Below are positions 8,261-25,003 of a stretch of 38,781 nucleotides of DNA, in pieces; positions within the stretch are counted from its first letter, which is position 1, and the number at the start of each line of letters is the position of its first letter. Position numbers and translations under genes: made by a program. The DNA is taken from positions 1 through 38,781 of the forward strand of contig JAHEEG010000016.1 in NCBI GenBank assembly GCA_024640825.1. The letters run 5' to 3'. The stretch is from Gammaproteobacteria bacterium (GTDB lineage: Bacteria; Pseudomonadota; Gammaproteobacteria; Pseudomonadales; Azotimanducaceae). Under the pieces are notes generated by a model. That model had not been told where the DNA came from. It worked only from the letters and a program-made list of their open reading frames with translations, and searched no databases.

Positions 8261-9328
8261 TTGTTCACTCTAGACCGCTACATCATCCGACAGGTGCTCT
8301 TTCCGACCGTGCTGGGGTTGGCGCTGCTGCTGCTGCTCTTCACTGCCTTCAGTAGCGTCCAGCTGCTTCGATCGGCTGCGCTCGGCAATATGCCGCCACG
8401 GGATGTGCTGGCGTTACTGATTGCGAACGATCTGTCCGCGCTGGAAATTCTGCTCCCTTCGGCCTTTTTTGCCGCCCTGGTCATGGTCATGAGTACCTGG
8501 CACCGTGAGGGGGAGCCCTATGCCCTGTATGCCGGCGGCATCAGCCCGAGTCGTGTGTCGCGTCCCCTGAAAATTCTGGCGGTGCTGGTTTCTCTCTGCG
8601 TGGCGCTGTTATCGCTGTATGGACGTCCCTACTCCTATACCCTCCGATACGAAATCAGCGAGCGCGGCGCCAACCTGAGCTCCGAGCAGATGGAGAGCCG
8701 TCGTTTTTACAAGTGGGACGAAGGATTCGTCATTCAGGCTTCCGAGGTCTCCCGCCAAACACCCAATCTGACCGATGTTTTCGCCCACGCGCAGGAATTT
8801 GGTCGGCCAGTGGTGCTCCGCGCCAGAGCAGCACAGCTGGATGAGACTGACGAAAACCGCATGCAAAAGCTGACCTTCATCGACGGGGTGAGTCACCAGA
8901 TCGGCGAGGCATCGCGAAAGGACCGGGTTACCCGTTTCGATCGCCTGATCTATTTTGCCCATAGGCCGGCCAGCGACGCTTTGACGAAACGTCGGGCGCT
9001 CTCCACAGCGCGGCTGGCTCAATCCGAGCGTCGCAAAGACGCCGCTGAGTTCCAGTGGCGCGTATGCATGCCCATCATTTCCCTGCTGGTAGCCCTGATG
9101 GGCATTGAGCTCGGCCGTTTGCGCCCGCGCCAGTCGCCCTATCCCCGGTTCGGCATGGCCCTGGTCCTTTATGCCCTGGTTTTCAACCTGTCCAGCCTTA
9201 CCAAGTCGTCTGTGGAAAACGGACTCATCCCGATGATGCCAGGCGTGTACACGGCCGTTGGCGTGCTCGTGCTGGCCTATCTCATCATGCGCCGCTCACC
9301 ATCGCTGAGCCTGAAGGTGCCGGCGTGA
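8261..9328 (+). CDS. lptF: LptF-type permease (LptF/LptG family)
   Basis: 355 residues with the YjgP/YjgQ layout: two N-terminal membrane helices (about 13-35 and 62-80), a helix near 107-125, a periplasmic beta-jellyroll-like domain from about 125 to 265 and three C-terminal helices. The opening LDRYIIRQVLFPTVLGLALL and the coupling-helix segment ALYAGGISPSRV are typical. Canonical LptF with LptG and LptB2 extracts LPS from the inner membrane for LptC. The start appears to be TTG at 8261, needed to keep the conserved RYIIRQ opening; no strong SD is seen. lptG overlaps the stop by 4 bp. The usual neighbour pepA is absent; instead an MsbA-like exporter and ceramide genes follow, suggesting a second, specialised pair for another lipid. 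That role is inference. Confidence 0.85.
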   Translation: MFTLDRYIIRQVLFPTVLGLALLLLLFTAFSSVQLLRSAALGNMPPRDVLALLIANDLSALEILLPSAFFAALVMVMSTWHREGEPYALYAGGISPSRVSRPLKILAVLVSLCVALLSLYGRPYSYTLRYEISERGANLSSEQMESRRFYKWDEGFVIQASEVSRQTPNLTDVFAHAQEFGRPVVLRARAAQLDETDENRMQKLTFIDGVSHQIGEASRKDRVTRFDRLIYFAHRPASDALTKRRALSTARLAQSERRKDAAEFQWRVCMPIISLLVALMGIELGRLRPRQSPYPRFGMALVLYALVFNLSSLTKSSVENGLIPMMPGVYTAVGVLVLAYLIMRRSPSLSLKVPA

Positions 9329-10428
9329 ACCTGATCTATCGCTATCTCATGGCAGCCCTATTGCGGGGTTTTCTGCTGGTTTCAGGCGCGCTGCTCGCCC
9401 TGTTCGGCCTGTTCGAATTCATGGACCGCGCCAATGACGTAGGCGATGCCAACTATTCACTGGCGGACGCGTTGCTGGTGACAGCAATGGTGATGCCAGC
9501 CAGGCTAGCTGACCTTTCTCCGTTCATTACCCTGATTGGTGCCGTCTACGGGCTGGGCACTTTCGTACGCAGCCACGAGTTACTCGCCATGCGCGCGGCC
9601 GGGCTGACGCCTTTGCGCCTCGCCATTGTCACCGGCATATCCAGCCTGCTTTTCCTGTTGGCCTTCGGCGTTGTGGAGATCGGCGCGCGGCCGATGTCTC
9701 AGCAAGCCAACCTGTACTACATGGCCGAAACATCGAGAGACGGCACACTGTTTTCCGAGAGTGGGATCTGGGTGCAGCACGGAAACACCTACGTTCACAT
9801 CGAATCCCTGGAACGGGGCGGCGCGCCAACCGGCATCCACGTCTATAATTTCGGCGGCGACGACGAGCTGGACGTCTATACCCGGGCAGAGAATGCGGCT
9901 ATCCGATCCGGATCCAGCTGGCAACTGCGCAACGTTCTCGAAACCTTCTACCCCGATCTCGACCCAGAAGCAGGGCCCGACAGCCCCAGGATCAGGCGTA
10001 CCGAGTACCAGACTCAGGACTGGGCGCCACCCTGGCGCCAGACCACCGTATTCTTCGAGATGCCCCTGGAAAGCCTGTCCCTGCTGCAGATTTTCCGCCA
10101 CATGCTCGTGCTGCAGGAGGAGGAGGCCGCATCGGGCGCCTATGCGCTGGAATTCTGGCGACGCTGCATGGTTCCGCTGTCTGGCATCGTATTTACACTT
10201 TTCGCTGCGCCGTTCGTGATCGGCGTGGGTCCCCGGTCAAGCATGGGCGGCGCGGTAACGCTGGGTCTGGCCAACGCCCTGGGGATCTTCCTGCTACAGC
10301 AGATCGTCACCAACAGCATCTATCTGCTCACCGAGTCGTCGGTGCTCGCGGTGCTAACGCCTATCCTGCTGGTGCTTGTTCCCGCCATCCTGCTGATCCG
10401 CCGCATCAACGGCGCACCCTCAGGATGA
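9325..10428 (+). CDS. lptG: LptG-type permease (LptF/LptG family)
   Basis: 367 residues with the same architecture as LptF. Helices lie at about residues 8-28, 50-75 and 95-115, a periplasmic domain spans roughly 125-265, and three helices end the protein. NLIYRYLMAALLRGFLLVSG opens the protein; SHELLAMRAAGLTPLRL is the cytoplasmic coupling segment that contacts the ATPase LptB. In the known complex LptF and LptG form the lateral gate that takes the lipid from the outer leaflet of the inner membrane. The GTG start overlaps the lptF stop as GTGA, implying translational coupling. No lptA, lptB or lptC is present in the window, so this pair would have to borrow those from the main Lpt system or have them elsewhere. 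Position at the head of the lipid locus suggests sphingolipid traffic. Confidence 0.87.
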   Translation: MNLIYRYLMAALLRGFLLVSGALLALFGLFEFMDRANDVGDANYSLADALLVTAMVMPARLADLSPFITLIGAVYGLGTFVRSHELLAMRAAGLTPLRLAIVTGISSLLFLLAFGVVEIGARPMSQQANLYYMAETSRDGTLFSESGIWVQHGNTYVHIESLERGGAPTGIHVYNFGGDDELDVYTRAENAAIRSGSSWQLRNVLETFYPDLDPEAGPDSPRIRRTEYQTQDWAPPWRQTTVFFEMPLESLSLLQIFRHMLVLQEEEAASGAYALEFWRRCMVPLSGIVFTLFAAPFVIGVGPRSSMGGAVTLGLANALGIFLLQQIVTNSIYLLTESSVLAVLTPILLVLVPAILLIRRINGAPSG

Positions 10429-10538
10429 TCTCATACACCTCTGGCGAAGAAATCCGCCACTTTATGGTGGGCGCCGGCCCGACATACAATGCGCGGCGCT
10501 AACGGCCCAGCACGCAAATTGAATCAGGACCCTCACCG

Positions 10539-12344
10539 ATGAGGCTCATCCGGGATTTCATGCTTTCCCACCCCTGGAACAGCGCCTTGCTGGTGGGGCT
10601 GCTGTTTCTCGCAGGACTGGCAGACGGTCTCGGACTGTCGGCCATGATGCCGATGCTCAATCTGGCTTTTGATTCCAATCCGGGTGCAACTGCGGGTGCA
10701 ACTGCGGGTGCACCCGGCGGCGTCGTGGACGCCGCAGCTGAAGACAATCTTACCTCACTGGTTTATGGCGTTATCGAAGCCGCAGGCCTGACGCCGTCTC
10801 TAGGTGTGCTGCTGGTTATGATCGTCACCGGCATCACCTGTAAAAGCCTGCTCGTCTTCATCGCCGAACAGCGCATCGGCTATCTGGCGGCCGACGTGGC
10901 CACCGGGCTGCGGGTACAGCTGCTGAGCGCGATCACCGCGTCGAGCTGGCGATTCTATGTCAATCAGTCCGTGGGTAAGCTCGCCAACGCCATGGCGACG
11001 GAGGCCTGGCGGGCTTCCAATGCTTACGTGTACGCCATCCGCCTGACCGTGGTTTTCGTCGAATCACTCGTTTACTTCAGCGTCGCCCTGCTGGTGTCCT
11101 GGGAAGCAACGCTGATCTGCCTGGCAGCCGGGCTGGCCGTATGGGGCATCTCTCATCAGTTCGTGAAGATTTCTAAATACGCGGGCACCGGGCAGACCAA
11201 ATGGTACCGGTCTCTGCTGGGTTCGCTCACCGACATCCTGCAATCCATCAAAACGCTGAAGTCCATGGGGCGGGAACGCGCCGCGGAGGCCTTGGTGGCC
11301 CGGGAAACCCTGGAGCTGAAGGCAGACCTGCGCCGCGAAGTGCTGGGCAACGCGGGGCTGGACGCCGCCCAGGAGCCCCTCTACACCATGGTCATCGTAG
11401 TTGGCATCTATCTGGCACTGGTCGAATTTTCCGTAGAGCTGGCAACGGTCACGTTTCTGACGCTAGTGCTCGCCCGACTGCTGAAAAGAGGCAGCAAGGT
11501 GCAGAAGGAATATCAGCGGATGATAACCAGCGAAAGCGCGTTTTGGTCGCTGCAGCAGACGGTTGCCGAAGCCGAGCGAGAAGCGGAAATCAATACCGGC
11601 ACCCGCCAGCCCAGCCTGGAAAGGCACATCCGCCTGAACGACGTATCGTTCGCCTACGGGGATACGCCGGTACTGGACGGGGTATCCCTTGAAATCGCCG
11701 CGGGCGAGTTAACCTGTCTGATCGGGGAGTCGGGCTCAGGCAAGTCCACCATCGCCGACCTCATCATCGGACTGATGACACCAACGGCGGGGCGCGTAAT
11801 GATTGACGGCGTGCCGCTGGGCGATCTGGACCTGACGGCCTGGCGGCGCTCCATCGGCTACGTTCCGCAGGACAACCTGCTGCTCCATGACAGCGTGTTC
11901 GCCAACGTAGCCCTGGGCGACGAGCAGCTGTCGGACGCCGATGTCGCCCGGGCGCTGAAAGCCGCCGGCGCGGAGGACTTCGTATCGAGCCTGCCACAGG
12001 GTATGCACACCGTCGTCGGCGAACGCGGCGCGCGGCTGTCGGGCGGTCAGCGCCAGAGGATCATGATCGCCCGCGCCCTCGCGCACGGCCCTCGACTGCT
12101 GATTCTGGACGAAGCGACCAGCGCTCTCGACGCAGCGAGCGAAGCGGCTATATGCGACACTCTGGCTTCCTTGAAGGGCCAGATCACCATCCTCGCAGTT
12201 ACCCATCAATCCGCACTGCAGCGAGTCGCAGACCGCGTCTATCGAGTGCACGACGGCCAGCTGGCCCGCGTGGAAGGCCACCAGACGCAAGCGGAGACCC
12301 GCTGGGTGGTACCAACGCACAGCAGAGCGACGGGGGCTGACTAA
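10539..12344 (+). CDS. ABC exporter, MsbA-like fused permease/ATPase
   Basis: 601 residues. A six-helix type IV exporter domain covers about residues 15-330 and an ATPase domain the rest. The ATPase has Walker A GESGSGKST, Q-loop YVPQDN, signature LSGGQRQR, Walker B LLILDEATSALD and H-loop VTHQS, so it should be active. Such half-transporters dimerise and flip lipids, lipid-linked sugars or peptides across the inner membrane. It begins 110 bp after lptG and ends 4 bp before the ceramide synthase candidate, so it is in the same run of genes; a lipid flippase for the product of the cluster is the likely role. Between the first two helices an extracytoplasmic loop contains a 12-bp tandem repeat encoding Gly-Ala-Thr-Ala. 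The start has AGGA about 12 bases upstream. Confidence 0.85.
   Translation: MRLIRDFMLSHPWNSALLVGLLFLAGLADGLGLSAMMPMLNLAFDSNPGATAGATAGAPGGVVDAAAEDNLTSLVYGVIEAAGLTPSLGVLLVMIVTGITCKSLLVFIAEQRIGYLAADVATGLRVQLLSAITASSWRFYVNQSVGKLANAMATEAWRASNAYVYAIRLTVVFVESLVYFSVALLVSWEATLICLAAGLAVWGISHQFVKISKYAGTGQTKWYRSLLGSLTDILQSIKTLKSMGRERAAEALVARETLELKADLRREVLGNAGLDAAQEPLYTMVIVVGIYLALVEFSVELATVTFLTLVLARLLKRGSKVQKEYQRMITSESAFWSLQQTVAEAEREAEINTGTRQPSLERHIRLNDVSFAYGDTPVLDGVSLEIAAGELTCLIGESGSGKSTIADLIIGLMTPTAGRVMIDGVPLGDLDLTAWRRSIGYVPQDNLLLHDSVFANVALGDEQLSDADVARALKAAGAEDFVSSLPQGMHTVVGERGARLSGGQRQRIMIARALAHGPRLLILDEATSALDAASEAAICDTLASLKGQITILAVTHQSALQRVADRVYRVHDGQLARVEGHQTQAETRWVVPTHSRATGAD
10682..10712 (+). repeat. 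12-bp in-frame tandem repeat in the exporter gene
   Basis: GGGTGCAACTGC is present twice and followed by a seven-base partial copy. It codes for Gly-Ala-Thr-Ala repeats in the loop after the first membrane helix of the ABC exporter. The unit keeps the reading frame. Confidence 0.85.
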
Positions 12345-12348
12345 TCAT

Positions 12349-13500
12349 ATGAAAGCTCCCCAAAAGACAAAACAGCCACCCCTTCTGAAGCCGGTGGCCA
12401 ACAGGACAACGCTGCGCGACTTCCTCGCTTTGCCCTTCAGCCTTTATGAGGAGGACCCGCAGTGGGTGCCTCCGCTGCTTTTCGAACGACGTCAGGCTCT
12501 GTCTCCTAAAAACCCCTTCTTCGAGCACGCCACCTGGCAGGGCTGGGTGGCGTACGACGGGCTCACACCGGTCGGACGTATTTCCGCGCAGGTTGACCAG
12601 CTTTACGAACAACAGCACGGAGAACGGGTGGGCTACTTCGGCATGCTGGAAGCCAGAGATGATCCGGTAGTTTTTGAAGCCCTGTTCCAGGCGGCGGAGG
12701 GCTGGCTGAAGGCACGGGATGCCATTCGCGCCGTTGGACCGTTCAACCTGGGGATTAATCAGGAACTCGGTGTCCTGGTAGAAGGATTCGAAACGCCCGC
12801 CTACTTCATGATGCCCCACGGGCGTCCCTACTACGGGGCCGCGGTGGAAGCAGCCGGATATCGTCCCGCTCAGGATATGCTGGCCTACGTGATAGATCCC
12901 GACTTCGACAACCCGCCGGTCATGTCAGGGCTCCTCAAGCGGATGAAACCGGACGTCAAGCTGCGGAGTCTCGACCGCAAGAACACCGCCGCTGAGCTGG
13001 AGACTCTGAGAGACATTTTCAACGACGCCTGGTCACAGAACTGGGGCTTTGTGCCGTTCACCGAAGCAGAGTTCAACGGTATCGGCCAAGAGATGCTCCT
13101 GCTGATACCCGATGACTTTATTCAGATCGCCGAGTACAAGGGGCGTCCGGTCGCCTTCATCGTGCTGTTGCCAAACCTCAACGAGGCCATCGCCGACCTG
13201 AACGGCCGGCTCCTCCCTTTCGGCTGGGCGAAACTGCTGTGGCGGCTGAAAGTGCGTTTCCCCGGCTCCGGCCGCGTACCACTCATGGGCGTTCGCCGGG
13301 AATTTCACAATACTCGATTCGGACCCGGACTCGCCTTTGCGCTGATCGATGCCATCAGACAGGCCGCCAGGCGCACAGGAATGGCCGAGGTGGAGCTGTC
13401 CTGGATACTGGAAGACAACCTGGGCATGCGCAACATCATCGAGACCATCGGTGGACGGGTCAGCAAACGCTACCGCATGTATGAAAAAGATCTCGGCTGA
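12349..13500 (+). CDS. cerS: GNAT-like acyltransferase, candidate bacterial ceramide synthase
   Basis: 383 residues of the YghO-like family, whose C-terminal half has an acyl-CoA N-acyltransferase (GNAT) fold. Recognisable segments are an N-terminal FLALPFSLYEEDPQWVPPL, a central AVGPFNLGINQELGVLVEGF, and a C-terminal GMAEVELSWILEDNLGMRNI ending in KRYRMYEKDL. Database entries in this family are often mislabelled dATP pyrophosphohydrolase. The Caulobacter member was shown to be a ceramide synthase that N-acylates the sphingoid base, a convergent counterpart of eukaryotic ceramide synthases. Co-occurrence in one locus with a serine palmitoyltransferase-like enzyme, its ACP, a reductase and an acyl-AMP ligase makes that role likely. 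It starts 4 bp after the exporter stop. Family is clear; substrate is inferred from context. Confidence 0.75.
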   Translation: MKAPQKTKQPPLLKPVANRTTLRDFLALPFSLYEEDPQWVPPLLFERRQALSPKNPFFEHATWQGWVAYDGLTPVGRISAQVDQLYEQQHGERVGYFGMLEARDDPVVFEALFQAAEGWLKARDAIRAVGPFNLGINQELGVLVEGFETPAYFMMPHGRPYYGAAVEAAGYRPAQDMLAYVIDPDFDNPPVMSGLLKRMKPDVKLRSLDRKNTAAELETLRDIFNDAWSQNWGFVPFTEAEFNGIGQEMLLLIPDDFIQIAEYKGRPVAFIVLLPNLNEAIADLNGRLLPFGWAKLLWRLKVRFPGSGRVPLMGVRREFHNTRFGPGLAFALIDAIRQAARRTGMAEVELSWILEDNLGMRNIIETIGGRVSKRYRMYEKDLG

Positions 13501-13527: not shown

Positions 13528-14391
13528 ATGACTTCCCAACAGTTCCAAGCCATTGTGCTCGCCGGCGAACGCGCCGGGGGAAACGCATTGGGGAAATCCC
13601 TGGGGCTCCCTGCCGGGGTGCTGGCACCGCTGGCTGGACAGCCCTGCATCCAACGTGTCATCACGACCCTGCGCCAGAGCTGCAGCGTGGCCGGCGGCAT
13701 CCTGTGCGGACCATCGGCTTCTGTACTTCGTGAGGCGCCTGAAATCAGCGCGCTGCTGGAGCCGGGTGATTACAAATGGCTGGCGCCCGCCCACGGCCCC
13801 GCCGCCAGCGCGTTCGCGGCGGCCGAGGCTCTGAACAGCCATCCGCTGCTGCTTACCGGCGCCGATCACGGCCTGCTGGACGCGGCAACGGTCGACCGCT
13901 TCTGCAAAGACGCCCTGGCTACTGTTTCAGAGCGGGACCAGCCCGACATGGTGGTCGGGCTGGTCCCCCACGAGCGCGTGCGCGAGGCGTTTCCTGATTC
14001 TAAACGCACCGTGCTGCGTTTCTCTGATGGCGCTTTCTGCGGCAGCAACCTGTTCGCGGTAACCAGCGAGGCGGGCCACCGCGCGCTGCGTTACTGGTCG
14101 GAGGTGGAATCGTTCCGCAAACGTCCCTGGAAGATCGCCAGGCGCCTGGGCGTACTGACCCTGCTGCGATACGTCACCGGCCGGCTGACGGTGGGCCACG
14201 CATTTCAGGCCCTATCCCGCCAGGCCGGATGCCGGGTGGGCTGGGTGCTCGTACCCGAGCCCAGGGCTGCCGTGGATGTGGATACCGTTGCCGACTGGGC
14301 GCTGGCCTGCCGACTCCTGGAGGACGAGACAGCTGCCATGGCGCATCCGCGACGGGCGAGCGGCCCAGCCGGCGAGGCGGCAGACCCATGA
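13528..14391 (+). CDS. MobA-like nucleotidyltransferase
   Basis: 287 residues with a nucleotidyltransferase fold of the MobA-like NTP_transf_3 type. The N-terminus AIVLAGERAGGNALGKSLG corresponds to the NTP-binding loop, with Lys near residue 23, and LLLTGADHGLLD supplies the metal-binding Asp region. The loop departs from the usual LAGGxGxRMG, so specificity cannot be assigned. Such enzymes activate small phosphorylated molecules or cofactors with CTP or GTP. Its stop overlaps the start of the lipid kinase-like gene as ATGA, so the two are translationally coupled and probably serve the same head-group step. The last 30 residues are Ala/Pro-rich and probably disordered. What it activates is unknown. 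Confidence 0.7.
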   Translation: MTSQQFQAIVLAGERAGGNALGKSLGLPAGVLAPLAGQPCIQRVITTLRQSCSVAGGILCGPSASVLREAPEISALLEPGDYKWLAPAHGPAASAFAAAEALNSHPLLLTGADHGLLDAATVDRFCKDALATVSERDQPDMVVGLVPHERVREAFPDSKRTVLRFSDGAFCGSNLFAVTSEAGHRALRYWSEVESFRKRPWKIARRLGVLTLLRYVTGRLTVGHAFQALSRQAGCRVGWVLVPEPRAAVDVDTVADWALACRLLEDETAAMAHPRRASGPAGEAADP

Positions 14392-15434
14392 ACATTGTGG
14401 TGATATCCAATCCCCGCACCACGCGAGCGAGAAAGCGATATGCCGATCTGCGGCAGGCCCTGCCCGCCTCACCCGATATACGTCATCACCTGACCGGCGA
14501 TATTCAGGAAGCAGCCGCCGTCCTGGAAAAGATTCGCTGGCAGACCGAAGACGTGCTCGTAATCAACGGTGGCGACGGGACGGCTCAGAACCTGCTAACG
14601 CTCCTCCTGAGCCGCCACGCACCCAGTGATACACCCCGGATCGCACTTCTACCGGGCGGTTCCACCAATATGTCCGCCTTCGACATCAATACCGAGCGCG
14701 CCTACGGGCGCTGCCTCGACCGGCTACGCTCGGCTACCAATTCTGCCAGCCAGCACCATCCGGAACGCCAGGTACAGATTGAGCAGCGGCCGCTTGTCAG
14801 AGTCGCGCTGTCAGACAACGACCAGTATGGGTTCTTCTTCGGCATCGGAACCATCGTCCAGGGCATCGAGTATTTCCATAAGCGGATTCACCCGGGCGGC
14901 GGTCGTCACGAACTGGGGGCCGGGCTGGCAATGCTGCGAACCCTCTGGGGCATCGCCCGGCATCAGCCGCCTTTTGCGGAGCCGCTGATTCTGGAGCTCG
15001 AGGCCCGTACGCTGGCTGATGCTGTCAAAGGCACAGAACCCGCTCAAACCGATCACGGGGGCTCGCCTGATTCTTCAGCAGGCGAGGCTCTCTCCTCTGA
15101 CACCTGGACACAGATTCCCATCCGATTGTGCCTGATAACGGCTCTGGATCGACTGTTTCTCGGCATACGACCTTACTGGTCCCACGCCGGCCAGCCTCTG
15201 CGCGCGACGCTGGTAGAAGCCGACGCATACCGCTTCATCCGCAGCATGCCGAAGTTGCTGACCGGCAATCCGAGTTCGCTCATGACACCCGAGCACGGCT
15301 ACCACAGCGTCGGGTTGCAATCTCTTCGCCTGCGTTTCAACGGCCCGCTTACCGTAGACGGAGAACTCTTCAGCAACGAGAGTGATACCATTAGGGTCGA
15401 CGCAACCGATCCGCTGAGATTTCTAAAACTGTGA
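14388..15434 (+). CDS. Diacylglycerol kinase-family lipid kinase (ceramide kinase candidate)
   Basis: 348 residues of the diacylglycerol/sphingosine kinase catalytic family. The start MNIVVISNPRTTRARK is the usual N-terminal strand, and VINGGDGTAQNLL (Gly61, Gly62, Asp63, Gly64, Thr65) is the nucleotide-binding GGDGT motif. Downstream, RIALLPGGSTNMSAFDI matches the second conserved GGTxN-like loop. Members phosphorylate diacylglycerol, sphingosine or ceramide with ATP; a bacterial ceramide kinase of related origin is known from the Caulobacter sphingolipid locus. The neighbouring ceramide synthase candidate makes ceramide the likely acceptor. The ATG at 14388 is chosen because it overlaps the previous stop and begins the conserved domain. 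Substrate is inference. Confidence 0.75.
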   Translation: MNIVVISNPRTTRARKRYADLRQALPASPDIRHHLTGDIQEAAAVLEKIRWQTEDVLVINGGDGTAQNLLTLLLSRHAPSDTPRIALLPGGSTNMSAFDINTERAYGRCLDRLRSATNSASQHHPERQVQIEQRPLVRVALSDNDQYGFFFGIGTIVQGIEYFHKRIHPGGGRHELGAGLAMLRTLWGIARHQPPFAEPLILELEARTLADAVKGTEPAQTDHGGSPDSSAGEALSSDTWTQIPIRLCLITALDRLFLGIRPYWSHAGQPLRATLVEADAYRFIRSMPKLLTGNPSSLMTPEHGYHSVGLQSLRLRFNGPLTVDGELFSNESDTIRVDATDPLRFLKL

Positions 15435-15441
15435 GCAGACC

Positions 15442-16191
15442 ATGAGCACCTCTGACGCACAGCCGTATTTGCGCAAGTTGATCATGAAGAGCGGCAAACG
15501 CACGCTTCGAAAGGTCGGTGACTTCCAGGCCCGGCACTCGCTGGTTGGCACCGGGCCGGTGTTGGACAAAGCGGACTTCCCCTGGACTCAAACGCTGGAG
15601 GAACATACCGAGCAGATAAAAGCCGAGCTGGATGACGTGCTGACGCATCCCGAAGACATTCCGGCATTTCATCAACTGTCACCCGATCAACAGCGGATCT
15701 CCAGGGAAAACCACTGGAAGACGTTCGCTTTCTATGTGTTCGGACACCGGGTGGACGACAACTGCACGCGCTGCCCGGAGACCGCACGCCTCCTGGATGC
15801 GCTTCCGGACCTGCAGAACGCATGGTTCTCGATTCTGGCGCCCCACTACCATATTCCACCCCACAAAGGCCCCACCAAGGCGATCATTCGCTGCCACCTC
15901 GGGTTGAAAGTGCCCACAGAACGCGATAAGTGCTGGTTGCGAGTGCAAGATCAGATCTGCCACTGGCGCGAAGGCGAATGTCTGGTTTTCGATGACACCT
16001 ACGAACACGAGGTGTTCAACAACACCGATGAAACCCGCGTCGTGCTGTTTCTGGATTTCGACCGCCCGATGGACGGCGTCGGCCGCCTGTTCAACCGCGC
16101 GCTGGTTCGCGTCATCCGCGCCAGCGCTTACGTCAAGGATCCGCTGAAGAACCTGGCCGCCTGGAACGCCGGCCAGCGCCCCCAACCCTAA
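15442..16191 (+). CDS. Aspartyl/asparaginyl beta-hydroxylase family (LpxO-like) oxygenase
   Basis: 249 residues of the AspH/LpxO family of Fe(II)/2-oxoglutarate oxygenases. HIPPHKGPTKAIIRCHLGL holds the first iron ligand, probably His152, with Arg150 nearby; FDDTYEHEVFN holds the second, His189; Arg199 in the RVVLFLDF strand would bind 2-oxoglutarate. Bacterial LpxO relatives add a 2-hydroxyl to the acyl chain of lipid A. Here the neighbours are ceramide genes, so 2-hydroxylation of the ceramide acyl chain is a good guess, consistent with the 2-hydroxy fatty acids found in many bacterial sphingolipids. The start lies 7 bp after the kinase-like stop and the stop is 4 bp before the GMC gene. 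There is no obvious N-terminal membrane helix, unlike classical LpxO. Confidence 0.8.
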   Translation: MSTSDAQPYLRKLIMKSGKRTLRKVGDFQARHSLVGTGPVLDKADFPWTQTLEEHTEQIKAELDDVLTHPEDIPAFHQLSPDQQRISRENHWKTFAFYVFGHRVDDNCTRCPETARLLDALPDLQNAWFSILAPHYHIPPHKGPTKAIIRCHLGLKVPTERDKCWLRVQDQICHWREGECLVFDDTYEHEVFNNTDETRVVLFLDFDRPMDGVGRLFNRALVRVIRASAYVKDPLKNLAAWNAGQRPQP

Positions 16192-16195
16192 ACAC

Positions 16196-17821
16196 GTGCT
16201 CATAGATCTGCGCAATGCCCAAAACGGGGTTAACGGCGGGGTCAGGCTTGAGGCCGACGTCTGCATCGTCGGCGCCGGCGCTGCCGGAGTCAGTCTCACC
16301 CGCCACCTCAGAAATCTGGGGCACAGCGTGTGCCTACTGGAAAGCGGCGGGCTGGATTTCGAGCAGCAAACACAGGACCTTTACGACGGGCCCAATCTGG
16401 GCATGGCCTACTACGACCTGGTGGACGCACGGCTGCGCTTTTTCGGCGGCACGACCAACATTTGGGGTGGGCGTTGCACGCCACTGGAACCATTGGACTT
16501 TGAGCATCGCCCATGGGTTCCCGATAGCGGCTGGCCGTTCCAGGCGCAGGCCCTGGAGAAACACTACCGCATTGCTCACGACTCGCTGGACCTCGGCGAG
16601 TTCGCCTACGATGAAAAGGTCTGGCGCGCTATCGGGGAGTCTGTGCCGGATTTCGATCCCCGGCGGGTCATCAGCCGCTTCTGGCGCTTCGACACTGTCA
16701 AGGAGCGTTTCAGCGCCCAGCGTTGCCGAGATCTTCTGCAGGACCCGGAGGTTACGGCATTGCTCCACGCCAACGTCACTCATCTTCAGGCAAACCCCAA
16801 CGCCAGCGCCCTCGACCATGTCGTGGTAAGCACTCTGGAAGGTCGGCAAATGGAAGTTCGAGCGCGCAGCTACGTTCTGGCCTGCGGTGGTATTGAGAAT
16901 CCCCGTCTGCTGCTTGCCGCCAGGGACGTGCAGAAGAACGGCATCGGAAACGACAATGACCTGGTCGGTCGCTTTTTCATGGAGCACCAGCACGGCAGAG
17001 CGGGACGGGTGCATACCGACGACCCGTTCAGGCTCTGGCACCTGTTCCGCAAGCGCAGAATCGCCAGCGGCCCGCCGGTCGCGCCAACGCTGTTGCCATC
17101 ACCAAACCTGCAGCAGAATGCGGGCATCCTCAACACAGCGCTGACCTTCAAACTGCAAAGGGATCCAAGCCAGGGCCTGCTGCTGAACGATCGCATATAC
17201 CGCCATCTCAAGCACCAGCTGCCACCCGATCGCACGCGACGCCGACTATGGCACGCCTATCGCGATGTGCGGGGATGGGTTCAACGGAATCTCAAGCCGA
17301 CAATTGAACGCTTGCGTAGCGGTGCCGGAGCGCGACATCTGTACGCCATGGTTCGCGCTGAGCAGGCTCCCAACCCGAACAGCCGAGTCACCCTGTCAGG
17401 AGAACGGGATGCGCTAGGGATGCTCAAGGCCAGCCTCGACTGGCGGCTAAGCGATATGGACAAACAGACCGTCAGCGTGCTGGCGGATACCCTGGGTGAG
17501 GAACTGACCCGACTGGGTGCAGGAAGGGTGGAGAAAGCCGAGTGGTTGCTGGATCCATCGCCGGAATGGCCAGTGGACCCCACCATCAGCAAACATCCGA
17601 TCGGTGGCTATCACCACATGGGAACGACACGCATGGGCAGCACGCCCAGGACGGGCGTGGTCAACGAGCACGGGCGCGTGCACGGCTATCACAACCTGTA
17701 TATCGCCGGAAGCTCGGTGTTCCCCACCGGCGGGTGGGCCAACCCTACGCTGACGATCCTCGCCCTGGTTCACCGGCTCGCCGAACACCTGGACGCCAGG
17801 CTGCAGGAAACCGACGCCTGA
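16196..17821 (+). CDS. GMC-family FAD-dependent oxidoreductase
   Basis: 541 residues. The FAD-binding Rossmann motif VGAGAAG is at residues 25-31, followed by a conserved FFGGTTNIWGGRC segment around residue 80. The C-terminal domain has GYHHMGTTRMG and NLYIAGSSVFPTGGWANPTLT, the usual closing signature of glucose-methanol-choline oxidoreductases. The family oxidises alcohols, often on sugars or sterol-like molecules. In this locus it may oxidise a sphingoid or head-group hydroxyl; no homologue in a characterised sphingolipid pathway comes to mind. It starts with GTG at 16196, four bases after the hydroxylase stop, and ends the tightly packed gene run that began with the ABC exporter; a 122-bp gap with a promoter-like sequence follows. 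Confidence 0.85.
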   Translation: MLIDLRNAQNGVNGGVRLEADVCIVGAGAAGVSLTRHLRNLGHSVCLLESGGLDFEQQTQDLYDGPNLGMAYYDLVDARLRFFGGTTNIWGGRCTPLEPLDFEHRPWVPDSGWPFQAQALEKHYRIAHDSLDLGEFAYDEKVWRAIGESVPDFDPRRVISRFWRFDTVKERFSAQRCRDLLQDPEVTALLHANVTHLQANPNASALDHVVVSTLEGRQMEVRARSYVLACGGIENPRLLLAARDVQKNGIGNDNDLVGRFFMEHQHGRAGRVHTDDPFRLWHLFRKRRIASGPPVAPTLLPSPNLQQNAGILNTALTFKLQRDPSQGLLLNDRIYRHLKHQLPPDRTRRRLWHAYRDVRGWVQRNLKPTIERLRSGAGARHLYAMVRAEQAPNPNSRVTLSGERDALGMLKASLDWRLSDMDKQTVSVLADTLGEELTRLGAGRVEKAEWLLDPSPEWPVDPTISKHPIGGYHHMGTTRMGSTPRTGVVNEHGRVHGYHNLYIAGSSVFPTGGWANPTLTILALVHRLAEHLDARLQETDA

Positions 17822-17898: not shown

Positions 17899-17943
17899 GA
17901 CGTGTTTTGCCTAAGCAAGTCGCCGAGGGACGCACGACACCCT

Positions 17944-18693
17944 ATGAAAGCCATCATTCTCAGCGCTGGTCAGGGACGGCGCTTGCTGCCGCTCACCAAA
18001 TCCGACCCCAAATGCGCCCTGCACGTGGCAGGTCGTTCTATTCTTGAAACCCAGCTTGGGGAGATAGCCAAATGCGCGATCGACGAAGTGCTGGTTGTTA
18101 CAGGCTTCGGCGCGGATCGGGTTGACGAGATAGTAACCGGCATAAAAGGTCCGCGCGTCCGCACACTTTTCAACCCCTTCTTTGCTTTGTCCGACAACCT
18201 GGGCACGTGCTGGGTAGCGGGTCCGGAAATGCACGAGCCCTTCGTCCTGATCAACGGTGACACGCTGTTCGAATCCGAGATCTTGCGGGCACTGCTCAGC
18301 TCCGCAGACAGCTCGCCGGTTACCCTGGTAACCGATGCAAAGGGTTCCTACGACGATGACGATATGAAAGTCGTGGTGGAGGGGGACCGCTTGCGCCGCG
18401 TGGGCAAACAGCTGAGTGAGGGCGTTAACGGCGAGTCCATCGGCATGATGCTGTTCCGTGGGGCCGGTCCACAGGTTTTCCGCGCAACGGTGGAGAAGGC
18501 AATGCGTTACGGGGAAGGCGTCAAGCGCTGGTATCTCTCCGTCATCGACGAGCTGGCACAGCAAGGTCTCGTGAAAGTCTGCAGCATCAACGGGTTGAGC
18601 TGGTGCGAAGTGGATGACACCGCCGATCTCGCCCACGCCCAGGGCGTTGTCGCGTCCTGGGACCTGCCTTCCGAGAAGGCGGCAGTTTCCTGA
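17944..18693 (+). CDS. Sugar/alcohol-phosphate nucleotidyltransferase
   Basis: 249 residues of the NTP_transferase family. AIILSAGQGRRLLPLTKSDP is the signature NTP-binding loop, with the Lys of PKCAL following; LINGDTLFESEIL carries the metal-binding Asp; SWCEVDDTADLAHA closes the fold. The layout resembles small cytidylyltransferases such as LicC and inositol-1-phosphate cytidylyltransferase more than the longer RmlA enzymes. A CDP-alcohol phosphotransferase is encoded 1.5 kb downstream, and such pairs make and use the CDP-linked polar group of phosphodiester lipids. I infer that this enzyme supplies the CDP-activated head-group donor. ATG at 17944 is chosen because it begins the conserved domain directly; the frame is open upstream but has no family sequence. 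Nucleotide and alcohol specificity remain unknown. Confidence 0.75.
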   Translation: MKAIILSAGQGRRLLPLTKSDPKCALHVAGRSILETQLGEIAKCAIDEVLVVTGFGADRVDEIVTGIKGPRVRTLFNPFFALSDNLGTCWVAGPEMHEPFVLINGDTLFESEILRALLSSADSSPVTLVTDAKGSYDDDDMKVVVEGDRLRRVGKQLSEGVNGESIGMMLFRGAGPQVFRATVEKAMRYGEGVKRWYLSVIDELAQQGLVKVCSINGLSWCEVDDTADLAHAQGVVASWDLPSEKAAVS

Positions 18694-20165: not shown

Positions 20166-21497
20166 ATGACGGATTTCGCGCTCGTAGTTGGCGAATCGAC
20201 AGTCCGGCTGTGGAGCCTGGACGCCAGGGAGCGGATCAGGCGGCAGCTGAAACAGGCAGGCGACGTGCGGCTGCTTGAGCGACCGGAAGATCTTAAAGGG
20301 CTTTCGCCCCAGGCCAACGTACTGATCCTGCGCGCGGACTATCTCTTCGAGGTGCGAACGCTGGCTGCCATGATGGAACGTCCCGATACGGCGCTGATTC
20401 ATCCCAAGCTGCAACGCCCGGCGGGCGCCTACGTACGAGCAACCCTTGCACCGAAAACGGCCCAGGCCCTTGCGATCGAGGCGGCCTCTCATCAGGAAGG
20501 ATCGGTCGAGAACGAGGGGCCATTCGAGACGGATGGGGCCTCACAGACAGAAGTGCCCGCAAATGGGGAAACGTCTTTGCCGAAGAACGGATCCGGGAAA
20601 GCGGGCTCTGTTCTTCCTGAGGGGGTCGCACTCATCAGCGCAGACGCGCTTGGTGCCTTCGACCACCAGCTGCGCAAAGCCAAAGCGCCACTCCTGGAAC
20701 CAGTCTCCGAGGACACGAGGCGCGCTTTGGAGAGTCAGCTCTACGGTTCTTCCTACAAGGGGATCACCGACCTGGTGACAAAGTTTGTATGGCCTCGGCC
20801 GGCGCGCCAGGGCGTGCGCTTCTGCGCCAGAATGGGGGTAACCCCCAACGCAGTAACCACCATAGGCTTCCTGCTGATGATATGGGCCTGCTATCTGTTC
20901 GCTCAGGGTCAGTTCGTTCTGGGCCTGGCGGCCGGCTGGCTGATGACTTATCTGGATACCGTGGATGGGAAGCTGGCCAGGGTAACGGTTCAGTCCAGCA
21001 AATTCGGACACCTGTTCGATCACGGGATGGACCTGATCCACCCTCCTTTCTGGTACGTTTACTGGGGAACCGCTCTTACGGCTTATCAGCCAATCTGGGG
21101 GCTGGGACTCTCCGATCTCTACTGGCTTATCATCGTCGGTTACATACTGGGAAGGGCGGTTGAAGCGCTGTTCCATCTGTTGGGGGATGCCAGCATCTTT
21201 TCGTGGCGGCCTTTCGATGCTTACTTCCGCCTCGTCACTGCCCGAAGAAATCCCTGCATGATTTTCCTAACCCTGAGCCTTTTCGTGGGCAGGCCCGATT
21301 GGGGGTTACTGAGCGTAGCCCTCTGGACATCGGCTACCACAGCCATTCTGTTCCTACGCCTGATCCAGGGGCTGATAGAGCGCGTCCGCCACGGGCGTCT
21401 GAAATCATGGCTTGCTGACCCTGAATCTGCGGTCGCCAGTCATTCCAGTGCCTACCGAATGTTCTCCGGAACCCAGAGTGCCTACGCCGCTGACTGA
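20166..21497 (+). CDS. CDP-alcohol phosphotransferase with N-terminal extra domain
   Basis: 443 residues. The C-terminal half, from about residue 210, is a membrane CDP-alcohol phosphotransferase with several hydrophobic helices. Its catalytic signature D-x2-D-G-x2-A-R-x8-G-x3-D-x3-D is complete: Asp264, Asp267, Gly268, Ala271, Arg272, Gly281, Asp285, Asp289. Enzymes with this motif swap CMP for a lipid or alcohol hydroxyl, as in PG, PI and PE synthesis. The first 190 residues form an extra soluble region; residues 1-100 and 150-175 have the strand pattern of a decayed nucleotidyltransferase, and 105-150 is a Glu/Gly-rich linker. This resembles the fused IPCT/DIPPS enzymes of hyperthermophiles. 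Transfer of a polar alcohol phosphate to ceramide is inferred. Confidence 0.82.
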   Translation: MTDFALVVGESTVRLWSLDARERIRRQLKQAGDVRLLERPEDLKGLSPQANVLILRADYLFEVRTLAAMMERPDTALIHPKLQRPAGAYVRATLAPKTAQALAIEAASHQEGSVENEGPFETDGASQTEVPANGETSLPKNGSGKAGSVLPEGVALISADALGAFDHQLRKAKAPLLEPVSEDTRRALESQLYGSSYKGITDLVTKFVWPRPARQGVRFCARMGVTPNAVTTIGFLLMIWACYLFAQGQFVLGLAAGWLMTYLDTVDGKLARVTVQSSKFGHLFDHGMDLIHPPFWYVYWGTALTAYQPIWGLGLSDLYWLIIVGYILGRAVEALFHLLGDASIFSWRPFDAYFRLVTARRNPCMIFLTLSLFVGRPDWGLLSVALWTSATTAILFLRLIQGLIERVRHGRLKSWLADPESAVASHSSAYRMFSGTQSAYAAD

Positions 21498-22479
21498 ACC
21501 CGATATCAGCGCTGGGCCTTCACCCGCTTCTGTCGCCCAAAGCAGCGAAAGCGAGCTGAGCGACCTCATAGCAGGCAGCGTCGATGCCGGCCCATTCCTC
21601 GGCGATCCCACGGTTTCCCGCCTGCTTGATGACATCCGAAGCCGCCACGGCAGCAGCGTAGTGGCCGTGCTGCTGTACGGTTCCTATCTGCGAGGCAAAC
21701 GCGACACGCTCCTGGATTTCTACGTGCTGCTGGAAGATTTTCATGAAGCCCTGCCTCGAGCATGGCACCGGCTGGCCAACCGGCTGCTGCCCCCGAACGT
21801 GTACTACCAGTGCGTGCCCAACGGCGACGGAGAGGCTCGCTCAAAATACGCGACGCTAAGCCTTCGACAATTCGAGCGCGCACTGAAAGGTGACTTTCAT
21901 TCCTACTTCTGGTCCCGGTTTACCCAGCCGTGCGCGCTGATCTTCAGCAGAGATACCCTCAGTGAGCAACGGGTGCTGGACGCCTTGAAGAATGCCACCG
22001 TAACCTTCATCGAGGCGGTGCTGCCCGTGCTTTCCGAGCGATTCACCGCCAGGGAGCTCTGGCAGACCGGCTTCAATCTGACCTACCGAGCCGAGCTGCG
22101 CGCGGAGGGGAACGAGCGAATTGTGGAGCTGTACGAAAAAAATGCCCGTCACTTCGACAGCCTTTGCGCGGCTTACGCAAGGCTACCCCATGCTCGAGTC
22201 GACCTCGTCGATGAAGGCATGTTCCAACAGCGCGCTTTCTCCCCAAAGCGCAACGCCGATCTGACGTGGTCCCTGCGATCCTGGTTGGGAAAGCTCCTTT
22301 CCGCGCTGCGCATCATTAAGGCGGCAGGGACTTTTGACGATCCGCTGGACTATCTGCTGTGGAAGATAAAGCGCCACTCAGGCATCTACATTGAGCCAAC
22401 GAACCGACAGCGGCGATTTCCGTTGGTCTTTGCCTGGCCTTTGCTGTGGCGCCTCTACCGCCTGGGCGCGTTCCACTAG
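21478..22479 (+). CDS. Nucleotidyltransferase-like protein of unknown role
   Basis: About 333 residues. VAVLLYGSYLRGKRDTLLDFYVLLED resembles the GS-x-D-x-D core of polymerase-beta-type nucleotidyltransferases, with Gly-Ser followed by Asp pairs. The rest is mostly helical and does not match a family I know. The segment QTGFNLTYRAELRAEG and the C-terminal LDYLLWKIKRHSGIYIEPT are distinctive. The frame is open further upstream (TTG at 21412), but GTG at 21478 is preferred because it limits the overlap with the phosphotransferase gene to 20 bp. The overlap implies co-expression and a related function, perhaps control of or a second step in head-group transfer. It is the last plus-strand gene of the locus and converges with spt, leaving 80 bp without a clear terminator. 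Confidence 0.65.
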   Translation: MPTPLTEPDISAGPSPASVAQSSESELSDLIAGSVDAGPFLGDPTVSRLLDDIRSRHGSSVVAVLLYGSYLRGKRDTLLDFYVLLEDFHEALPRAWHRLANRLLPPNVYYQCVPNGDGEARSKYATLSLRQFERALKGDFHSYFWSRFTQPCALIFSRDTLSEQRVLDALKNATVTFIEAVLPVLSERFTARELWQTGFNLTYRAELRAEGNERIVELYEKNARHFDSLCAAYARLPHARVDLVDEGMFQQRAFSPKRNADLTWSLRSWLGKLLSALRIIKAAGTFDDPLDYLLWKIKRHSGIYIEPTNRQRRFPLVFAWPLLWRLYRLGAFH

Positions 22480-22559: not shown

Positions 22560-23738
22560 CTATCCGGCAAGCACCACGCTGAAGGCCGTGACGATCTCGT
22601 CGACCTGCGAGGCCGTATGGGCAGCGCTGGTGCTAACTCTCAGCAGGCTCGAGCCGTCCGGAGAGGCTGGGGGCGCGATGAGGTTAGTGTACACACCTGC
22701 GTCAAGAAGCTGGTGCCAGACCCCAAGGGCCTGATCGCGGTCCGCGAATCGCACGCCCACTACCGGGCTCATATCCGGACCCAGGGTCAGGCCAAGGCCC
22801 GCGAGACCTTCGTAAAGGCTTCTGGCGTTTCGCCAGAGCCGCTCACGCAGCTCTGGGCGCTGCTGCAACAGGCGAAGCGCGACACGGGTAGTGGCAATCA
22901 CCGAAGGGCAGGGAGATGCCGTAAAGATATAAGGCCGGCTGGCATAGCGGAACAGTTTGACCACGTCATGGTGGCTGACACAGAAGCCGCCGGTGGATCC
23001 AAGACTCTTGCTGAACGTGCCAACGATGAAATCCACATCGGCCTCAACGCCAGCTTCTTCCGCGAGACCGCGACCATGGTCCCCGTAGATGCCGAGCGAA
23101 TGCGCTTCGTCGACAAAAAGAAAGGCGCCGTAGCGGCGCTTGACCTCGGCAAACTCCGCCAGCGGCGCGTGATCGCCAAGAATACTGTACAGGCCTTCTG
23201 TGATGATCAAGGTTCGGCTGGCGCGATCTTCCAGACGACGCAGGCGATTGTCCAGACTCTCAACATCATTGTGCTTGAAGCGGTAGACGTCGGCGCCGCT
23301 CATCCGGCAACCATCGTAAAGACTGGCATGGGCATCGGCGTCAAGCATCACGCAATCGCCAGGGGCAAGCAACGCCGTGAGCGTACCGATATTCGCCGAG
23401 TAGCCGGTGGAAAACACCATCGCATCATTAACGCCATAGAACTGGGCCAGCTCAAGCTCCAGCGCCCTGTGGCTGTGGTAGTTGCCATTTGCCATCCGAG
23501 AGCCCGTGGTGCCCGTACCCTCGGTTTCAAGCGCCGCCTGGCCAGCGGCAATGCACTCTGGGTCAAAGGTCAGCCCGAGGTAGTTGTTGGTGCCTGCAAG
23601 GATGGTCCGGCGCCCGCGGATGACGGCCTCCGTAGCGGAGATCATCTGCTCCATCTCTACGTCGGTGGGGTCAATCCCGCCCTGGCTCAATTGACGGCGG
23701 GTGGCTGCGACCTCGTCGAATTTACTGAGGAGATGCAT
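22560..23738 (-). CDS. spt: Serine palmitoyltransferase-like alpha-oxoamine synthase
   Basis: 392 residues of the PLP-dependent alpha-oxoamine synthase family (serine palmitoyltransferase, KBL, BioF, HemA). Lys244 in GTFSKSLGSTGG forms the Schiff base with PLP; DEAHS (Asp210, His213) and DAHASLYDG (His137) hold the cofactor ring; GTNNYLGLT opens the catalytic core. It would condense serine with a fatty acyl thioester to give 3-oxosphinganine. BioF and KBL are excluded only by context: the gene directly follows an acyl carrier protein gene, one base apart, and lies in an operon with an acyl-AMP ligase and a reductase, exactly the gene set of Caulobacter ceramide synthesis. ATG at 23738 is preferred to a longer frame that would overlap the ACP gene. 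Confidence 0.82.
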   Translation of the reverse strand: MHLLSKFDEVAATRRQLSQGGIDPTDVEMEQMISATEAVIRGRRTILAGTNNYLGLTFDPECIAAGQAALETEGTGTTGSRMANGNYHSHRALELELAQFYGVNDAMVFSTGYSANIGTLTALLAPGDCVMLDADAHASLYDGCRMSGADVYRFKHNDVESLDNRLRRLEDRASRTLIITEGLYSILGDHAPLAEFAEVKRRYGAFLFVDEAHSLGIYGDHGRGLAEEAGVEADVDFIVGTFSKSLGSTGGFCVSHHDVVKLFRYASRPYIFTASPCPSVIATTRVALRLLQQRPELRERLWRNARSLYEGLAGLGLTLGPDMSPVVGVRFADRDQALGVWHQLLDAGVYTNLIAPPASPDGSSLLRVSTSAAHTASQVDEIVTAFSVVLAG

Positions 23739-23739
23739 G

Positions 23740-23985
23740 CTACTGCTGATTCCGCACCACAACCTCGGCCAGCTGCGAGATCGTGTGGACATTGGAAAGG
23801 CTTTCCAGATCGATAGCTACGTCGTAGTGATCTTCGATCTCGACAACGAACTCCATTATCTGGATCGACTCCAAATTGAGGTCTTTGATGAGATCGGTAC
23901 TACCCGTAAGCTCTGGCGGATTCTTAAGAAACGCCGCCAGGATCGTGCGGATCTCTTGTTCTATTTGTGCAAGGTCTTGACTCAC
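23740..23985 (-). CDS. acpR: Acyl carrier protein for the sphingolipid pathway
   Basis: 81 residues, acidic, with the four-helix pattern of acyl carrier proteins. The phosphopantetheine site is Ser40 in DLNLESIQIMEF, where the usual DSL reads ESI; Asp to Glu is conservative and the Ser is kept. It would carry the fatty acyl chain loaded by the upstream acyl-AMP ligase and hand it to the serine palmitoyltransferase-like enzyme. The gene is followed one base later by spt and preceded by the reductase gene, so it is dedicated to this pathway; a housekeeping ACP would be near fabF and fabG. Naming follows the ACP of the Caulobacter locus and is by context. Confidence 0.8.
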   Translation of the reverse strand: MSQDLAQIEQEIRTILAAFLKNPPELTGSTDLIKDLNLESIQIMEFVVEIEDHYDVAIDLESLSNVHTISQLAEVVVRNQQ

Positions 23986-24058: not shown

Positions 24059-25003
24059 TCAGCTCTGAGCGAACAAATCGCGCGCCCCGACCTGAAGGTC
24101 GATCTCCGGGCGCCAGCCCGTTCGGCTGGAAAACGCCGAATTATCGCACAGCCAATGCTCCTGCTGAAGCTCGCGGGCTTTCCCTGGCGTAAGCATGGGC
24201 GAGTAGCCGAAAAGGCCGGCCATAAAAGCGTTGGCTGCGCCTGCCGCGCGCAGTAGTGCCATAGGCACCGGTAACTGACGCACCCTGCGCTGACCAACCG
24301 CTTCGCCAATTTCGCTCCAGCTGTACCCGCAGGGGTGGCCATCGTCTATCGCACAGTTAAGATGCCAACAGGCGGCCGGGGCGCAAAGCCAGGCCGATAC
24401 CGCGCAAGCAAGATCGGTGACGTGAATCAGCGACAGCCTCTGCCCAGGGGGACCGGGACGCAGCGCGACGCCCCGCCGAACCAGATTCAGCAGCGGTTGC
24501 ATCTCAACATCGCCAGGCCCGTAAACGGCCGGTGGGCGAAGAATACTCCAAGAAAGATCCGGGTAATTTTCTAGCACCTGCTCACCGGCAAATTTACTGC
24601 GCGCGTAGTGAGACAGCTCTGGGCGACCCGCAGCTAGAGAGGAAAGCAGAAGGAAGGGGGCAGAACTGCCGGCCTCCTTGAGCGCTTCCAGTACCCGCTG
24701 AACACCTACGACATTGGCGGCAACGAAATCCTCATAGCGACGCCCCCGCACGGTACCAGCGCAGTAGACAACGGCGCTTACTCCGTCAACAGCGCCAGCA
24801 AGCGCCGACCGCTCTGTAAGGTCGGCAGCTACTACCTCGCAAGCCGGGCTTAACGCCTGTCGGCTCGTCGACCCTGACCTTATGACAGCACGCACGCGGT
24901 AGCCGTCGCCAATGAGCCGACGCTGCAGGTGTTGTCCGATGAAACCGGTGGCACCGGTCAGGAGTATGGGAAGCGAATCAGCCGAAGGCTTCAGCTTTTG
25001 CAA
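24059..25003 (-). CDS. cerR: NAD-dependent epimerase-type reductase, ceramide pathway
   Basis: 314 residues of the extended short-chain dehydrogenase (NAD-dependent epimerase) family. TGATGFIGQHL is the dinucleotide-binding GxxGxxG motif near residue 17 and YARSK provides the Tyr-x3-Lys catalytic pair. LRPPAVYGPGD is the typical post-catalytic segment. In Caulobacter an enzyme of this type in the same operon reduces the 3-oxo group of the sphingoid or oxidised ceramide intermediate; this is the probable role here. The start is TTG at 25003, inside the end of the acyl-AMP ligase gene (26-bp overlap); no ATG or GTG precedes the nucleotide-binding motif. The overlap makes co-expression with the ligase certain. 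Confidence 0.78.
   Translation of the reverse strand: MQKLKPSADSLPILLTGATGFIGQHLQRRLIGDGYRVRAVIRSGSTSRQALSPACEVVAADLTERSALAGAVDGVSAVVYCAGTVRGRRYEDFVAANVVGVQRVLEALKEAGSSAPFLLLSSLAAGRPELSHYARSKFAGEQVLENYPDLSWSILRPPAVYGPGDVEMQPLLNLVRRGVALRPGPPGQRLSLIHVTDLACAVSAWLCAPAACWHLNCAIDDGHPCGYSWSEIGEAVGQRRVRQLPVPMALLRAAGAANAFMAGLFGYSPMLTPGKARELQQEHWLCDNSAFSSRTGWRPEIDLQVGARDLFAQS

Follow-up and report, generated by a model that had tools for sequence, protein, structure and literature searches.

An LptF/LptG pair at the head of a ceramide locus

The 38,781-nucleotide stretch of DNA analysed here, called the window, is contig JAHEEG010000016.1 of a gammaproteobacterium of the family Azotimanducaceae (assembly GCA_024640825.1) and corresponds to contig C18 of the source genome (labelled G000), a draft of 4.09 Mb in 296 contigs that is 96% complete. 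It carries a pair of genes for the permease proteins LptF and LptG, followed by a gene for an ATP-binding cassette (ABC) exporter, at the head of a ceramide locus; an earlier note on this DNA had read this arrangement as a dedicated export route for sphingolipids. Both permease proteins match nearly the full length of PF03739 (E-values 8.8e-49 for LptF and 3.9e-49 for LptG; cut-off 27.9 bits), and both narrowly miss the cut-offs of the lipopolysaccharide (LPS)-export equivalogs, with 228.6 vs. 230 bits for TIGR04407 (LptF) and 220.1 vs. 240 bits for TIGR04408 (LptG). In the contig scan, the closest named relative is a Pseudomonadales metagenome-assembled genome (MAG), CAMYJX010000004.1, the LptF of which shows 93% identity. 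The two genes overlap by 4 bp, as had been noticed before, and the exporter gene starts 110 bases after lptG. It does not run 4 bp into the ceramide synthase gene, as had been stated: its TAA ends at 12344 and the next ATG lies at 12349, which leaves a 4-base gap.

The GNAT-type protein encoded next is about 51% identical to Escherichia coli YghO, with a PF00583 score of 19.8 bits, under the cut-off of 20.7; yghO is the N-acyltransferase gene for dihydroceramide (PMC9386255). The test for a bacterial serine palmitoyltransferase (spt) is passed (Table 1). Judged by their domains, the genes downstream of the exporter are, on both strands, the set expected for ceramide and a phosphorylated ceramide headgroup; names such as CC_1153-like stand for shared domains and place, by comparison with the Caulobacter gene descriptions in PMC11324152. 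LptFG sits within this ceramide/phosphosphingolipid locus, the genomic context of the LptF2G2 proposed in that paper.

The locus could alternatively export another envelope lipid or glycolipid, with ceramide being only a membrane modifier, and its nucleotidyltransferases, GMC oxidoreductase and hydroxylase indeed have putative roles only. The genes for ceramide and ceramide phosphate are, however, recurrent partners in the mapped loci, and the E. coli island described below combines LptFG with ceramide genes and few others, which makes this explanation very unlikely in our view.

Table 1. Genes of the lptFG-ceramide locus in the window.
Feature	Positions	Strand	Basis and remarks
lptF, sphingolipid-locus clade	8261..9328	+	355 aa, TTG start; PF03739 166.8 bits
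lptG, sphingolipid-locus clade	9325..10428	+	367 aa, GTG start; PF03739 168.0 bits
ABC exporter, candidate sphingolipid flippase, not MsbA	10539..12344	+	PF00664 and PF00005
GNAT-type ceramide synthase (bCerS / YghO / CC_1154 kind)	12349..13500	+	PF00583, YghO likeness, alignment
MobA-like nucleotidyltransferase	13528..14391	+	PF12804; CC_1153-like by domain and place after cerS
Diacylglycerol (DAG)-kinase-type lipid kinase	14391..15434	+	PF00781 1.2e-11; CC_1160 ceramide-kinase-like by domain
Aspartyl/asparaginyl beta-hydroxylase	15442..16191	+	PF05118 4.2e-53
GMC oxidoreductase	16196..17821	+	PF05199 2.4e-24
Second nucleotidyltransferase, perhaps CC_1152 role	17902..18693	+	PF12804 and PF00483
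CDP-alcohol phosphatidyltransferase	20166..21497	+	PF01066 5.7e-10; CC_1159-like by domain
Tam41/CDP-DAG-synthase-like	21412..22479	+	PF09139 3.9e-4, below cut-off; CC_1161-like by domain
Serine palmitoyltransferase (spt)	22560..23792	-	NF047599 595.8 bits, cut-off 500; true start may lie further downstream than listed
Acyl carrier protein (AcpR-like), 81 aa	23740..23985	-	Overlaps the listed spt start; by eye from serine motif and place
NAD-dependent epimerase/dehydratase (CerR-like)	24059..25003	-	PF01370 8.5e-26
Fatty acyl-AMP ligase (AasR-like)	24978..26756	-	NF006624 734.9 bits, cut-off 600

Sphingolipid-locus pairs form two separate groups

To assign LptFG pairs to a sphingolipid or a pepA context, markers within 12 kb were considered. 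None of the 194 LptF/LptG reading frames in the loci then fetched lies near both kinds of markers, and some lie near neither; the assignment excludes the second pairs of G095, G317 and G363. On a tree built from 85 concatenated pairs, the sphingolipid label can be mapped with 2 changes, compared to 25.9 after shuffling. Within the window's class, the 16 pairs from sphingolipid loci, including that of the window, fall into one group (SH-aLRT 100), which holds only such pairs and lies apart from the pepA-linked ones; a phylogeny against canonical pairs had been proposed in the earlier note. A second sphingolipid group (SH-aLRT 100) consists of 16 pairs from genomes outside this class (rows dubbed 'alpha', their belonging to the Alphaproteobacteria being a presumption). 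A single origin for all sphingolipid-linked pairs is rejected by the approximately unbiased (AU) test (p 5.85e-41, log-likelihood 90.9 lower), performed on a 42-row subset hand-chosen to span the groups. Neither the 85-pair tree nor the AU test includes the Krumholzibacteriota pair L043; an earlier tree comprised 86 pairs, with the omission of 16 partnerless genes, the fragmentary pair of G007 contig C10 (L048), L042, L157 and L159.

These results indicate that LptFG has been drawn into sphingolipid loci at least twice, barring an unmodelled process that erases a common origin, the second group, presumably mostly alphaproteobacterial, having been recruited separately. The second pair of E. coli PN43 and the pair of Pseudomonas sp. 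BYT-5 join the window's clade. The division by class has one exception, the plasmid pair of the betaproteobacterium Diaphorobacter sp. JS3051, which falls in the second group, so that transfer between lineages occurs.

The earlier note knew of no Lpt pair devoted to sphingolipids; this was out of date, as LptC2/LptF2/LptG2 were proposed for this role in Caulobacter crescentus in 2024, together with the flippase CC_1166, in a study in which transport was not investigated (PMC11324152). It is the only proposal of an Lpt paralogue for sphingolipids that we found in the open-licence literature, where later or closed papers could be missed. The window pair is a variant of that proposed kind: in both cases LptFG lies beside ceramide synthase and CPG2 genes, and the Caulobacter order, lptF-lptG-cerS-nucleotidyltransferase, is that of the window apart from its ABC gene. 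A Caulobacter-like order is also seen in G267 and G351, the latter with a second LptC match near the locus. Unlike the Caulobacter system, the pairs of the window's class stem from a separate recruitment according to the AU test, in which other genomes stand in for Caulobacter, and G000 has no second LptC gene, an added ABC exporter and no other LptFG. Among the 51 genomes searched, none of those in the window's class has a second LptC; extra PF06835 matches in this class are the LptD frame or pieces of one gene. The other mark of LptF2G2, a second version beside the canonical pair, is seen in seven relatives and not in G000.

The ABC exporter is a candidate flippase of its own family

The exporter is of type B and, like MsbA and PglK, of half size. 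The earlier note had called it MsbA-like, which holds in the broad sense, but not as an identification: it reaches 255.5 bits with TIGR02203, far under the MsbA cut-off of 602, and its best-scoring half-size solved relative is PglK (190.7 bits) rather than MsbA (170.7 bits). The search for a second msbA suggested in the same note was successful, with an MsbA-like gene found elsewhere in G000 (482.8 bits over 444 residues). It is cut by the contig end, and the encoded fragment aligns with the window protein over 198 residues only. Relatives of the window exporter are present in ten other sphingolipid loci, with 40-87% identity over 574-602 aligned positions; they include those of the BYT-5 (44.5%) and JS3051 (40.6%) loci. 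From these comparisons, we infer that it belongs to a family of its own and is a candidate sphingolipid flippase. Among 34 further sphingolipid loci, some of them partial, relatives were detected (E 1e-20) only in BYT-5 and JS3051; if the exporter is the flippase, other lineages would therefore use something else. The regions of E. coli PN43 and BL21(DE3) contain no relative of it, and a 'lipopolysaccharide biosynthesis protein' is found at that end.

The canonical pair is absent from a genome that keeps LPS genes

The two steps of LPS transport had been thought to be duplicated here for another lipid. When the whole G000 assembly is searched with PF03739, only the two window genes are found, and the canonical pair that was to be looked for beside pepA is absent. 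E. coli pepA, holC and valS queries match nothing within the window, in agreement with the missing pepA neighbourhood described in the earlier note; pepA is on contig C205. Most canonical loci of the relatives have LptFG flanked by an RDD-family gene on one side and pepA-holC-valS on the other. In G000, pepA comes directly after the RDD gene, at a distance of 170 bases, with holC and valS behind it, so that the locus is intact without LptFG. A canonical pair hidden elsewhere in the genome is rejected by the assembly-wide search and this intact locus. The RDD gene directly adjoins pepA in seven of nine pepA regions (G000, G001, G003, G004, G007, G014 and G044); in the other two, pepA stands without detected RDD or lptFG (G017) or the contig ends soon beyond pepA (G008). 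No pepA-linked LptFG is found in the five genomes of the genus, which are drafts, 68-96% complete.

This draft state, and the presence of both pairs in relatives, would fit a strictly dedicated sphingolipid permease in a genus whose canonical LptFG is merely missing from the assemblies. The direct junction of RDD and pepA in G000, G001, G003 and G004, and the lack of a pepA-linked pair in all five genomes, argue against this explanation, which we hold to be quite unlikely.

G000 keeps single genes for LpxB, LptD and LptC (a second LptC match is within the LptD frame), as well as two full-length LpxC matches on contigs C5 and C189 (L143:687-1607 and L144:6980-8029). An LptB-like ATPase adjoins LptC on contig C153, as judged by coordinates. 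With a sole LptFG and the LPS genes retained, this genome has no spare dedicated pair, and the window pair probably also serves LPS. Of two circumstances that the earlier note had named as speaking against its proposal, that lptFG and msbA be the only ones of the genome, the first is found and the second is not. A doubled LpxC is common to many relatives, with or without spt.

Sphingolipid-locus LptFG accompanies spt and persists without LpxC

Clear spt matches, defined by a best match of at least 52% identity, are present in 15 of 58 relatives: G000, G001, G002, G004, G007, G008, G014, G015, G016, G017 (where the match contains one stop codon), G022, G030, G034, G036 and G044. In each of the 15, LptFG lies in a sphingolipid context (via the ABC gene only in G017, and split over two contigs in G014), and extra LptFG matches track spt, as the earlier note would have it: at least four PF03739 matches, fragments being counted, are found in 9 of the 15 spt genomes vs. 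0 of the 43 others, where G032 has three. The canonical and the sphingolipid pair are found together in seven genomes: G008 (canonical pair judged by RDD alone), G015, G016, G022, G030, G034 (sphingolipid pair cut by the contig end) and G036.

LpxC is absent in four of the 58 genomes (G014, G017, G029 and G044), and LpxB in these four and G007. In the four lacking both, the only LptFG is of the sphingolipid kind; LptD is kept in G014, G017 and G044 but not G029, and LptC in G014, G017 and G029 but not G044. As a control of the search, 14 named genomes were scanned; 7 contain PF03739 and 4 LpxC, each set including E. coli and Caulobacter. Judged by gene content, the relatives can be arranged in a series, from genomes with both pairs, through those with only the sphingolipid-locus pair and LPS genes, to those with only this pair and neither LpxC nor LpxB. 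A sphingolipid route is thus supported for the gene lineage, by its clade, its co-occurrence with spt and its persistence without LpxC and LpxB, and not for G000, where neither 'dedicated' nor 'duplicated' applies, the sole LptFG being found with LPS genes. In G004, of the same genus, another sphingolipid locus on contig C113 (L047:1-7473) comes with an LptFG pair of its own; it may be foreign (contamination estimate 6%).

At the scale of the phylum, a ceramide-synthase profile has matches in 48 of 397 genomes, of which four are weak (<170 bits). The survey comprised 47 synthase genomes (G000, already done, was left out) and 33 without a match. LpxC is absent from 29 of the 47, vs. 1 of the 33. 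Of the 29 LpxC-less synthase genomes, 28 have LptFG among the matches listed, the exception being G188. In 26 of these 28, LptFG is at most about 15 kb away from the synthase, as read by eye from coordinates; in G329 and G349, the two are on different contigs. G157, a one-contig genome in the window's class, lacks LpxC, and its synthase and LptFG genes adjoin each other. Nine of the 14 clear synthase genomes with LpxC have at least four LptFG matches, and 32 of the 33 genomes without synthase have two (three in G070), again among the matches listed. Fisher tests on such counts ignore shared descent: the 29 LpxC-less ceramide genomes are spread over eight family codes, with 20 in f72, perhaps Sphingomonadaceae. 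Some sphingolipid-forming bacteria, e.g., Sphingomonas koreensis, are without LPS (PMC11324152).

A second LptFG pair in E. coli

The ceramide genes of E. coli B have been published (PMC9386255); a word search of that text returned neither 'Lpt' nor 'transport'. The yghO-spt island has the same ceramide genes as the window. In BL21(DE3) (NC_012971.2, L245:9921-12067), lptG and lptF, with the locus tags ECD_RS14850/ECD_RS14855, adjoin spt and are annotated as LPS export; an exporter of the window type is not found there. In K-12 MG1655 (L242:11044-14409), IS5 lies between yghO and yghQ, where BL21(DE3) has ceramide genes and the second lptFG. The second pair adjoins spt in all three E. coli regions opened. 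Its clade placement is based on one copy, that of strain PN43, which groups with the window's clade and not with E. coli's own LptFG, to which it is 28-29% identical.

Of 5426 complete E. coli genomes, 4086 have a match to the second lptFG, 4088 to spt and 4501 to yghO; when at least 80% of the query must be covered, the counts are 4060, 4047 and 4482, respectively. Canonical lptFG matches 5375 of them (megablast, query L084:8219-10401) and has no match in 51, and both pairs are present in at least 4035. The synthase query matched 32 plasmid records; in the four of these that were opened, from Pseudomonas sp. BYT-5, Roseomonas gilardii, Diaphorobacter sp. JS3051 and E. coli, LptFG lies near the synthase. 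On the R. gilardii plasmid (L239:8193-9259), the second LptF/LptG gene is annotated as two overlapping reading frames.

The window pair could also be an ordinary housekeeping permease, devoted to LPS only and residing in a sphingolipid locus after loss of the canonical pair. It is indeed the sole LptFG of a genome with LpxC twice, LpxB, LptC, LptD and an MsbA-like gene. Nevertheless, pairs of this clade are found in addition to a canonical one in seven relatives and as the only ones where LpxC and LpxB are absent; in E. coli, a second pair occurs beside the canonical one on the scale just given. An LPS-only function is hence unlikely.

Conserved coupling residues and few basic LPS-contact residues

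The window pair belongs to the same family as the LPS exporter LptB2FGC, has the same length, and matches the solved LptF and LptG chains (E. coli, Shigella and Pseudomonas structures). Like them, it keeps the coupling-helix glutamates (E84 of E. coli LptF and E88 of LptG), which matter for the interaction with LptB (PMC5082905), as does every one of the 16 sphingolipid pairs in the class. Besides scoring under both NCBIfam LPS-export cut-offs, it differs from LptB2FGC in the basic positions, ten in number, reported to contact LPS (lipid A phosphates and core; PMC6744409): one is basic in the window, ten are in E. coli LptFG and four in the second pair of PN43 (five including histidine). In window LptG, K34 is replaced by E, R133 by N and R136 by Y. 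Within the class, the mean number of basic residues is 2.62 for sphingolipid pairs vs. 4.17 for canonical ones (Mann-Whitney p 0.003, kinship ignored). As canonical pairs of the class vary widely, the low count is only supporting. K34E is lethal in an LPS-transporter assay (PMC6744409); its use as a diagnostic residue was dropped, as canonical pairs of the class vary there too (A14 T6 S6 K4 among 40).

Proposed role of the pair

The window pair is likely to belong to a lineage of LptF/LptG permeases working for sphingolipids, which in this genus has also replaced canonical LptFG. According to the domains of the neighbouring enzymes, ceramide would be made and converted into an anionic phosphosphingolipid. 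The ABC exporter might then flip this lipid to the outer leaflet of the inner membrane, the weakest step of the proposal. Finally, LptFG, driven by LptB via the coupling-helix glutamates, would extract the lipid and hand it to the ordinary Lpt bridge, for which G000 has single LptC and LptD genes. As the place beside pepA is empty, the same pair would have to carry both lipids if LPS is made and exported. That the pair exports a sphingolipid is, in all this, deduced from gene context and descent.

Several observations weigh against this proposal. (i) In G003, of the same genus, LpxC, LpxB and LptD are present with neither LptFG nor an spt match (L130:6687-8634), a gap which could perhaps be explained only by supposing that the island is missing from the bin. 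(ii) G029 has LptFG in a sphingolipid context and no spt match. (iii) G188 (L163), a single contig, has a ceramide synthase and no match for LptFG, LpxC or LptC. (iv) Five of the 14 clear synthase genomes with LpxC (G366, G097, G148, G220 and G222) have only two LptFG matches among those listed, so that a second pair is not always needed, and the fetched LptFG of G366, G097 and G220 lie by pepA. (v) The residue signal is modest: the ranges overlap, canonical pairs of the class spanning 1-10 basic residues, and R136 is still R or K in 14 of 16 sphingolipid pairs. (vi) Lipid A status is judged by LpxC, with LpxB added in the relatives only, and the relatives are often draft MAGs.

More broadly, the Lpt bridge could serve outer-leaflet lipids in general, rather than being an LPS machine, and its permeases could be exchangeable. 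LptFG would have been recruited at least twice for sphingolipids, one recruited pair carrying LPS and sphingolipid in this genus, sphingolipid alone being carried in LPS-less gammaproteobacteria, and a second, hitherto unrecognised LptFG serving sphingolipid in about three quarters of E. coli. To us, this generalisation is as open to being wrong as to being right. If it is true, work on Lpt inhibitors, studies of LPS loss and the annotation 'LPS export' must allow for a second lipid cargo. The analysis provides comparative support for LptFG as a sphingolipid permease and a candidate flippase family, and points to at least two recruitments. As BL21(DE3), a widely used laboratory strain, carries the second pair, the idea is open to experiment, gene deletion and lipid fractionation being simple there.

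Elsewhere in the window, genes for two cyclopropane-fatty-acid-synthase-like methyltransferases and a DUF1365 protein are clustered on the minus strand (35287-38769).

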